From positions 1 to 64,000 of the forward strand of contig MU621103.1 in assembly GCA_025399215.1 (NCBI GenBank): 64,000 nt of DNA. The letters run 5' to 3'. Position 1 is the first letter of the stretch, and every line of letters begins with the position of its first letter. The translations under genes were made by a program, and so were the position numbers. Source of the DNA: Globomyces pollinis-pini (taxonomy: Eukaryota; Chytridiomycota; Chytridiomycetes; Rhizophydiales; Globomycetaceae). Under the pieces are notes generated by a model. It was not told the DNA's origin. It made no database searches and was given only the letters and a program-made list of their open reading frames with translations. Below are positions 30,239-46,665 of this stretch, one piece after another.

Positions 30239-32022
30239 ATGGCACAACACCTTCCAAAGGACCAAATTCTAAAGACTTTTGCAAAGCTTCAATCAAAGAA
30301 ACAAAATAAGGTTCTCTTTCTTACTCTGAATTGATAGACGTGTTTTGATTGTAATGCAAAGAATCCTACTTGGTCTTCAGTTACATTCGGTGTTTACTTG
30401 TGTTTGGACTGCTCTGCTGTTCACAGAAATATGGGTGTTCATATCACTTTTGTTAGGTATAATTCTATGGAATTCTCACTTTACTAGGTAAGGGTTCTAT
30501 AATCTTATATCTCTCAGATCCGTTCAACTTGATAGCTGGACAATTGACCAACTTAGAGTTATGAAGGTTGGTGGTAATGGTCCAGCCCAGGAACATTTGA
30601 AAGCTTCTGCCGGTTCTTTCAAAGACGCAAAAGCAAAGTATTCATCCAGACAAATGGCAACATACAAAGATAAATTAATGAGACTCGTGGAAGACGATAA
30701 AAGAAGGTATGTATTATGGAATTCAGAACCTTTCAATTTGGGTTTATTTTTCTCCATCATATTATGTGTTTCAATTTCTTTGGATGATTGGCTGTTAAAT
30801 ATTTGATGATGCTTTATACCATACAATTTATCATTTATCATGTAATTATATGAACTTCAATCTCGAAACAGAAATACAGCAAATATTTAACTTTTGGTAA
30901 TAGATACCCAAATGAATTGGTGATTGAGGGATTGGATTCTGACACTCCTACTGCTGCTGCTGTTGCAGATGACGGTGATTTCTTCTCTGATTGGGATAAA
31001 CCTGCTGTAGTATCGAAACCAACCGTTACCACTCAGCGATCTACCGCCTTTTCTAATCCACCTTCTAGCGTTTCTTCTTTTGGATTTACACCTTCCGCGA
31101 TAGCTCCGAAACCAAAACCTGTTGCATCACCTACACCAGCTTCAATCCCAATCAGCCAACCTTTAAGTAGCACCTCTTCTGCGGCTCCAATTATTAAGAA
31201 AAAGACCGGTGCCAAAAAAATTACAAAAGCAATTGACTTCGAGGAAGCTGCTAGACTTGCAGAGGAAGAATCACAACGAATTGCTGCTAATAGAGAAAGA
31301 GAAGCACTTCAATCAAAGTCTTCACGACAACAACCATCTGCTTCTGGTAATAACTCATTCTCCAGTCGTTTGGCATATCAGGAACCTACAACCAACTCGA
31401 CCAAGAATGACCAGAGTCCTGAATTAGAGCAGAGTTTTAAGAAATTTGGATTTGGATTTGATCCTACCAGCCTGGATTCTAAACCAGCAGCTTCATCTGC
31501 AGGTGTTGGGCATAAACTTGCAGGTGGGAAGGTAACCTCGAAACCCCCTCTTGGATCAGGTGGATTCGGTGGTGGATTTGGAGGGGTTCCTTCTCAGTCA
31601 GAGTCATCTGGTGAATCTGCAAAGCGCTTCGGAAATGCAAAGGCTATATCATCTGATGAATATTTCCAAAGGGGACAATTTGATGCTGCTGCCAAGTACT
31701 GCACAATATGAGTTAACAAATAGTGCTGAAGCAAGAGAAAAGTTACAACAATTTTCTGGAAAGAGTGGATTTGGATCTGAAGATTATTATGGAGAGAAAG
31801 ACACATCAGTTGGTGCTCAACGTCGTCAAAGTGTGGAAAATGTATTGTATGCAGTACAAGATGGTGCTAGTGATTTTGCACAAAAATTTGTTGGCCAAGC
31901 AAGTGAAGATTTTGATTCTTTGAAAAAATTAGTTACTGTTGGAGGTTCTAAGTTAGGAGAACTGTTGGGAGATATTCAGGTAAGTCACGATATTATTTAC
32001 TTTACAGTCCCGTTATACTTAA
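30239..32022 (+). CDS. GLO3: ArfGAP of the Glo3/ARFGAP2-3 type
   Basis: GTPase-activating protein for Arf1 in COPI coat cycling at the Golgi. The N-terminal ArfGAP domain has the zinc finger [11 protein letters not shown]...[14 protein letters not shown] with the arginine-finger region [12 protein letters not shown], then [17 protein letters not shown]. The middle is Ser/Pro/Ala-rich and ends with repeats typical of Glo3 ([14 protein letters not shown] and [12 protein letters not shown]), closing in LGDIQSRYT, a family-like C-terminus. Introns: 30311-30337 (27), 30457-30517 (61, two abutting GT-AG units), 30707-30903 (197, the longest in the window), 31696-31723 (28) and 31980-32007 (28). The frame closes to 480 aa. 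Confidence 0.92.
30457..30517 (+). other. Two abutting mini-introns with a zero-length exon
   Basis: Unit 1 is 30457-30487 (31 nt, starts GTATAATTC, ends TTACTAG). Unit 2 is 30488-30517 (30 nt, starts GTAAGGGTTC, ends TCTCTCAG). Both have full GT-AG ends and the usual local size. Protein continuity (HITFVR to SVQLDSW) shows that all 61 nt are removed. It may be spliced as one intron or in two recursive steps. Confidence 0.7.
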
Positions 32023-45750: not shown

Positions 45751-46665
45751 TTAACCTCGCAAGGAGAGAACTGATCGTACATCTTTTGTGAAACGCAGAG
45801 CATCCAGAAGAGGCAACAAATCCAATAGACATTGATCAGAAGAATCTTGAGTCCAAGTTTCTATGGGTATTCCATTATCTAGGTGTTAGTGAAACTAACC
45901 AAACCAGGATTTAACGTAAAGCAGAAATCGGAATTATCTAGTAGAATGACTTTAGATAGATCAGGTTCGACTAATTCCAAATTTTTCATGAATGAACCTC
46001 TAGAAGGGACACAGCTCTATGATGAGAAAAGGGAACAAGTACATCTCTAAAGTAACGTTTTGAAATGAGAGTTCTTGTTGGATCTAGCCAGTCGATGACA
46101 GGGTCGGCGTATTCTGGAACAGATGCACTGTGGTTAAGATGAGTTGATAAATACGTGAATATGACAATTTTGAACCATTCGGATACCTGCTGATGAGTTT
46201 TTTTAATACTGTACCTAGCAATGAGTCTTTTAATATTTCACCTTGATGAGTTTTTAGTTTGTATAGTTATTATACCTAAAGGATCAGATAGAAATGAATA
46301 CCTAAAAGATCAGTGAGAGTATAATACCTTTTTTAAAAACAGATCACAATAAGGTCTTTTATAAACTAACCATTAATATAATATTGAATACCATAATATA
46401 GACACACATGTTTATCTAATAAAACTTCAACTAAAAAGTCATGAGAACCGAAACCATCTAAATTTGAATGAACTAAAGTTTCATCTAAATCTAATACTAA
46501 AGTTTTTCTAGAATGAATTTTATGTAATTTTTTAGTAGTATAATTTGGTAAGAAAGGGAATACTAGAGAAGAGAAGTAAATGATAGAATTTAATAAAGAA
46601 AGAGAGTAATAATAATATAAAGATTGTAATAGAGTATCTAATGCTTTCATCCAATTTGGATCCAT
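45751..46665 (-). CDS. CTDNEP1/Dullard-Nem1-type FCP/SCP phosphatase
   Basis: Protein Ser phosphatase of the nuclear envelope/ER family that activates lipin. An N-terminal hydrophobic region ([16 protein letters not shown]) likely anchors it in the membrane. The catalytic motif [12 protein letters not shown] lies near residue 65. It is followed by [48 protein letters not shown] with the second acidic motif, DNGIPIETW and [18 protein letters not shown]. Introns: 46366-46391 (26), 46187-46327 (141, five abutting units), 46017-46042 (26) and 45879-45904 (26). The frame closes to 231 aa from ATG 46665 (human CTDNEP1 244). The partner subunit (Spo7-type) is not in the window. Confidence 0.9.
46187..46327 (-). 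other. Tandem array of five abutting mini-introns
   Basis: In transcription order the units are 46302-46327 (26 nt), 46276-46301 (26), 46242-46275 (34), 46215-46241 (27) and 46187-46214 (28). Each starts with GT and ends with AG, and each AG touches the next GT. Units 1 and 2 share GTATT at the start and CTGATC near the end (19 of 26 positions identical). Units 3-5 share a TAAAA...CTCAT block before the AG. The flanking exons join as DLFLKK-VSEWFK, matching the family without gap, so all 141 nt leave the mRNA. Confidence 0.8.

Follow-up and report, generated by a model that had tools for sequence, protein, structure and literature searches.

Drosophila ratchet points, at which recursive splicing is of the zero-nucleotide kind, were reportedly described by Duff et al. 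in 2015. At these points, a juxtaposed AG/GT lies within a long intron, and a cryptic RS-exon is needed (PMC8605326). In stwintrons, one intron lies inside another and interrupts one of the outer intron's splice signals, and joining of the distal sites shifts the reading frame (PMC5639578, PMC9024468). Introns can also arise when exonic AGGT or AGGC segments are duplicated in tandem, as in two genes of fission yeast with introns that extend over several repeats (PMC4974935, PMC3629103). Introners are intron units that have copied themselves into many genes (PMC9860276).

Here we describe an insertion of 141 nt in Globomyces pollinis-pini, a chytrid fungus of the order Rhizophydiales. It lies in a CTDNEP1/NEM1-type phosphatase gene within the window, which is the whole 64,000-nt stretch of contig MU621103.1 that was analysed. 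As at the Drosophila ratchet points, acceptors adjoin donors, and splicing would recreate a donor if removal is stepwise. Unlike the Drosophila case, the units measure 23–37 nt, stand up to ten in a row and leave no exon space; the total here is 141 nt, and in place of an RS-exon in a long host intron the next acceptor is found 27–34 nt beyond the joint. Like fungal stwintrons, the arrays would be complex introns made of short U2-type introns, for which we propose consecutive splicing by intron definition. Unlike in stwintrons, neighbouring units are placed next to one another, GT and AG are uninterrupted in each of them, and joining of distal sites leads to the same mRNA. In common with the AGGT or AGGC duplications, the joints of tandem repeats make splice sites and several repeats share one intervening stretch; there, exonic segments were duplicated in two fission-yeast genes, whereas the Globomyces arrays repeat entire introns, and do so at many sites. 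As with introners, intron units multiply within a genome. Unlike with introners, the similarity found here is between neighbours; in DNA searches that skipped simple repeats and very common words, the phosphatase array and two further array loci had no matches other than themselves. We found no account of abutting ultra-short spliceosomal intron arrays in the titles and abstract openings among the matches listed, a literature mostly outside subscription journals, and we therefore take the arrays as a variant of recursive or complex introns.

A phosphatase gene interrupted by 141 nt

The phosphatase gene lies on the minus strand, with its ATG at 46665 and a TAA that ends at 45751. Excision of the 141 nt and of four further introns of 26, 27, 26 and 26 nt leaves a single open frame encoding 222 residues (Table 1). 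The predicted protein matches PF03031 (E 3.6e-56) and human CTDNEP1 (E 3.3e-52), the latter without a gap where FLKK meets VSEW. The location proposed in an earlier note on this DNA, between codons that are adjacent in the protein family of a CTDNEP1-type gene, is thereby borne out. The open frame and the PF03031 match rule out a pseudogene. The closest protein match is a deposited G. pollinis-pini protein with 96% identity. The deposited protein P0001 reads FLKKVSEWFK and the 141 nt are absent from the annotation; the annotators, therefore, had also removed them. P0001 carries nine extra residues that derive from the 27-nt intron at 46154-46128, and P0002 and P0003 are without them; retention of this in-frame intron in P0001 is likely an annotation error. 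Our gene finder missed the gene at first and mis-spliced it under a flat length prior, and when limited to introns of 20–45 nt it did not report the array. The gene model consequently rests on homology. Another PF03031 gene gave identical scores at G000:C115:47049-47475 and G000:C406:7735-8161, and these two contigs have the look of either a recent duplication or haplotypes left uncollapsed.

The 141 nt divide without remainder into units of 26 + 26 + 34 + 27 + 28 nt, all of which run from GT to AG, and each internal AG adjoins the next GT, which produces four AG/GT joints. Units 1 and 2 are alike at 19 of 26 positions (73%), and a TAAAA..ACTCAT block can be read in units 3–5. All of these features had been listed in the earlier note and were recovered here. 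Two in-frame stop codons within the 141 nt rule out a coding role. Known RNA families are ruled out as well, since the window has 0 Rfam matches at the gathering score.

Table 1. Coordinates of the phosphatase gene, its introns and array units, the second array in the window, and the protein seams at which arrays lie (a slash marks the seam)
Feature	Position or seam	Strand	Remarks
CTDNEP1/NEM1-type phosphatase gene	45751..46665	minus	222 aa once the array and four single introns are removed
Single intron, 26 nt	46366..46391	minus	
Array of five abutting mini-introns, 141 nt	46187..46327	minus	not in deposited P0001
Unit 1, 26 nt	46302..46327	minus	motif score 3.8
Unit 2, 26 nt	46276..46301	minus	resembles unit 1; motif score 4.2
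Unit 3, 34 nt	46242..46275	minus	motif score -0.6
Unit 4, 27 nt	46215..46241	minus	motif score -2.2
Unit 5, 28 nt	46187..46214	minus	resembles unit 4; motif score -0.7
Single intron, 27 nt	46128..46154	minus	in frame, stop-free; retained as nine residues in deposited protein
Single intron, 26 nt	46017..46042	minus	
Single intron, 26 nt	45879..45904	minus	
Second array in the window, ArfGAP gene	30457..30517	plus	two abutting units: 30457-30487 (31 nt), 30488-30517 (30 nt)
CTDNEP1 seam	FLKK/VSEW		ungapped
Gamma-tubulin seam	FFYQ/ADDA		ungapped
UXS1 seam	NFYT/GHKR		ungapped
Rab8 seam	TITT/AYYR		ungapped
ArfGAP seam	HITFV/RSVQ		ungapped vs ARFGAP3; one-residue gap seven residues downstream
CHMP3/Vps24 seam	LAKE/VVNS		ungapped
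MARK-like kinase seam	KSQKE/VAIK		ungapped; one-residue gap further on

Arrays at the seams of conserved genes

Intron sites with abutting arrays hold 2 to 10 units of 23–37 nt each, and the genes that they interrupt include Vps24/CHMP3, Rab8, gamma-tubulin, UXS1, an ArfGAP and a kinase. All seven seams tested are ungapped against homologues at the seam (7/7). Among the coding models of the arrays, L049 is without a model across the seam, and several arrays were trimmed, with their outer units counted as other introns. The array with the largest total is that of Vps24/CHMP3, with ten units in 289 nt (L045, C4:30500-33500, from 1434 on the minus strand). In the deposited Globomyces Vps24/CHMP3 protein (P0122), the start residues are encoded by array units 7-8 and the true N-terminus is missing; the full N-terminal part is present in the proteins of Boothiomyces, Terramyces and Kappamyces. 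At another locus (L072, C68:15550-16390), six 27-nt units occupy 328-490 on the plus strand, some neighbours being 0.91-0.96 identical, and GTAAAAGA opens both unit 1 and the downstream exon. This shared start is perhaps a trace of intron birth from exonic duplication.

Tandem repeats are by nature prone to misassembly, and an assembly artefact or a sequencing error in the repeat might be suspected. Such an origin is practically negligible as an explanation, given that the units have mostly diverged, that the phosphatase gene is fully open and that arrays fall precisely on codon seams in conserved genes. DNA queries returned a single copy at each of three array loci and no second allele with a differing number of units.

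Abutting introns across the genome

The frequency of chance decomposition was assessed in 124 kb, comprising the window and six 10-kb stretches picked before inspection. In this sample, 33 of the 54,754 GT..AG segments of 100–180 nt can be split into at least three abutting units of 22–40 nt, 15 of them at the phosphatase array and 18 elsewhere. For segments of exactly 141 nt the figure is 1 of 693. This control, together with the genome-wide excess of abutting pairs described below, rules out a chance decomposition of the 141 nt.

Across the genome of 18.5 Mb we searched for a strict pattern, GTAT..TAG/GTAT..TAG, with units of 23–33 nt. The abutting form has 182 matches (83 + 99), compared with 26, 28 and 28 when the units are spaced by 1, 3 and 6 nt, and 22 when they abut and are longer (43–53 nt). 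Tandem introns with zero-length exons, which the earlier note had read at this one locus, are thus a trait of the whole genome. These counts are approximate because nested matches are included, and two of the 28 matches at 6-nt spacing are one abutting pair in another register. Reversing the letters gave 83 abutting matches (49 + 34), which is more than in the spaced controls and less than half of 182. A looser pattern, AGGT..AGGT..AGGT, gave 1203 matches (577 + 626) against 3563 (1687 + 1876) in its reversed control, and was not used as a count because such letters are frequent in coding repeats. AGGT chains that inflate the loose pattern occur at L022, L030 and L037 (C1 near 106 kb; C2 near 36 kb and 115 kb), and look like short tandem coding repeats, not introns.

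Two rough extrapolations give an idea of the abundance. Three arrays in 124 kb, one of them in the phosphatase gene, scale to about 450 in 18.5 Mb, or to about 300 without that one. Division of the 155 excess strict pairs by the share of pairs that fit the strict pattern (2/44) leads to about 3400 pairs.

Intron size and splice signals

The intron-size distribution was determined in the 124 kb with the gene finder under a flat length prior of 15–250 nt and no motif scoring. GT-AG introns of 20–39 nt numbered 68, compared with counts of 27, 20 and 22 when three control boundary pairs were used, and at 50 nt and above there was no GT-AG excess (67 against 78, 73 and 79). Without an excess in this upper range, no class of long introns is apparent at the power that 124 kb affords, and none above about 45 nt was seen in that sample. 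The array units match the short class: 115 units from 32 arrays measure 28.7 ± 2.8 nt (range 23–37), and 233 predicted single introns measure 29.4 ± 4.6 nt. The 32 arrays comprise 11 loci kept by eye from AGGT chains, the others having either resembled coding repeats or shown no intron features; 18 of 20 eye-picked places, look-alike copies included; and three from the window and L055, one of which is the phosphatase array. The two eye-picked places dropped were L071 (no chain) and L059 (weak first unit, though with an open seam).

The units also carry the signals of single introns. A YTNAY core is found at the best site in 0.84 of the 115 units, 0.81 of the 233 single introns and 0.27 of 300 decoys. 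The motif score separates 54 units (from arrays of at least three, with no similar neighbours) from decoys with an AUC of 0.935, compared with 0.942 for single introns, a comparison that is partly circular in that array ends had been extended with the same score. In the phosphatase array, units 1 and 2 reach 3.8 and 4.2 with a score whose training set was other introns; the single-intron mean is 2.14. Units 3–5 (-0.6, -2.2 and -0.7) fall below that mean and above the decoy mean of -4.23, and the five units together give an AUC of 0.884 against decoys. A further test is independent of the strict search pattern and free of the circularity at array ends. YTNAY lies 5–13 nt before the end in both units of 38/77 abutting pairs and of 5/50 spaced pairs (Fisher p 2.8e-6), or in 31/68 abutting pairs when matches that share a unit are counted once. 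The 77 pairs, also used for pair identity below, are from the 182 abutting matches, namely the first 80 of the 100 listed, less two nested ones and the phosphatase array's own; the spaced controls are 24 of the 26 matches at 1 nt (two nested ones dropped) and 26 of the 28 at 3 nt (both in C165 dropped).

These data bear on how the 141 nt are removed. The main rival to stepwise removal is a single splicing event that pairs the first GT with the last AG and takes out all 141 nt as one intron; the AG/GT joints inside it would then be unused relics of duplication. One-step splicing would change neither the mRNA nor the deposited protein, the weak motif scores of units 3–5 agree with it, and the deposited Vps24 model (P0122) seems to take two neighbouring units as one intron. 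We nevertheless regard it as unlikely, since the donor, branch motif and acceptor have been kept in the units of diverged arrays, ten consecutive units are intact in Vps24, and introns longer than about 45 nt do not form a visible class in the 124 kb. Mixed removal, with one, two or more units taken per spliceosome step in no fixed order, would likewise give the same mRNA by every route, as follows from the joints, and two-unit steps of 52–61 nt may remain within reach of the splicing machinery. The 124 kb show no visible intron class at 50 nt or above, and we judge this alternative highly improbable. Stepwise removal, which the earlier note had raised as a possibility, would fit all of the evidence, and the size limit together with the signals kept in each unit appears to favour it.

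Similarity between neighbouring units

The earlier note had further suggested that the array arose by tandem duplication, which the data uphold for part of it. Aligned identity is 0.77 between units 1 and 2 and 0.71 between units 4 and 5, which places the first pair beyond the 99% point and the second beyond the 95% point of pairs taken from different arrays; units 2 and 3 (0.47) and units 3 and 4 (0.57) are at background. Outside the pattern letters, the 77 listed pairs have a mean identity of 0.595, against 0.531 for unrelated pairs, with 19/77 exceeding the 95% point of the unrelated pairs and 14/77 exceeding their 99% point. In the 32 arrays, 18/83 neighbour pairs exceed the 95% point; 14 of those 18 come from the 37 eye-picked pairs, and outside the eye-picked loci the count is 4/46, where about 2 are expected. 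As most neighbour pairs are at background, copying between neighbours is evident for a minority, including units 1 and 2 and units 4 and 5 of the phosphatase array. The remaining units are either old and diverged or of a different origin.

An origin of the latter kind would be insertion of unrelated introns exactly at AG/GT splice joints in place of copying from a neighbour. AG/GT is a protosplice-like target, and most neighbour pairs show background similarity, both of which count for insertion. The 14/77 listed pairs above the 99% point, and the neighbours that are 0.91-0.96 identical, count against it, and we regard it as doubtful. Insertion concerns origin only and is compatible with stepwise splicing.

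For copying, the spacing of the units is informative. With an exon of 3 or 6 nt left between units, the reading frame would stay intact and the protein would gain one or two residues. Such mini-exons have 28 and 28 matches against 26 for the 1-nt control, and zero-nt spacing is six- to sevenfold enriched over the spaced controls. That 3- and 6-nt mini-exons are no commoner than the 1-nt control suggests copying that respects intron borders. The mechanism could be border-exact slippage or reverse splicing. Exonic AG or GT microhomology finds no support as a requirement: one or the other is present in 9/18 arrays and both are absent in 9/18, with an upstream AG in 6/18, a downstream GT in 5/18 and the two together in 2/18. 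Single introns have an upstream AG in 25%, a downstream GT in 12% and both in 8/233.

A model for the growth and removal of arrays

We consider it probable that the 141 nt consist of five complete tandem spliceosomal introns and belong to a genome-wide class that multiplies by copying at intron borders and is spliced unit by unit; duplication is seen in a minority of pairs, and unit-by-unit removal is what we infer from the layout of the arrays. In this model, copying would duplicate an existing intron exactly from its GT to its AG, so that arrays grow and later diverge, a history that for most units is deduced. Each unit, having its own donor, branch-type motif and acceptor, would be removed by intron definition, its length falling in the narrow range that this genome uses. 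Each splicing step would then set the next GT against the exon and recreate a donor, and the cycle would repeat until the array is gone. Because of the AG/GT joints, the same mRNA results whichever donor is joined to whichever acceptor, provided that the acceptor belongs to that donor's unit or to one further downstream. The order and size of the steps are therefore immaterial, and extra units hardly affect the protein; this near-absence of a protein effect would let arrays accumulate.

A broader proposal, for which the chances seem to us evenly balanced, is that G. pollinis-pini has a genome-wide regime of order-free serial splicing in which arrays are necessarily cleared stepwise, and that copying is perhaps splice-site precise. 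Its spliceosome would cope with little beyond introns of about 23–40 nt, and one or a few units per step would be needed for that reason. Border-exact copying would yield arrays of ten or more units in hundreds of genes, essential ones included. Such copying might occur, for example, if an excised intron were reverse-spliced next to the site that it came from and then reverse-transcribed.

Implications for splicing and intron gain

Gene annotation fails on arrays of this kind, as illustrated by the deposited Vps24/CHMP3 protein, which begins within its own ten-unit array. If confirmed, the arrays would represent recursive splicing at its smallest scale and at high multiplicity, in a fungus. 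They would make testable how the spliceosome recognizes touching 26-nt introns, whether these can be removed in any order and how introns multiply. Since extra units leave the mRNA unchanged, the arrays would, if confirmed, also offer a nearly neutral route for growth in intron number.
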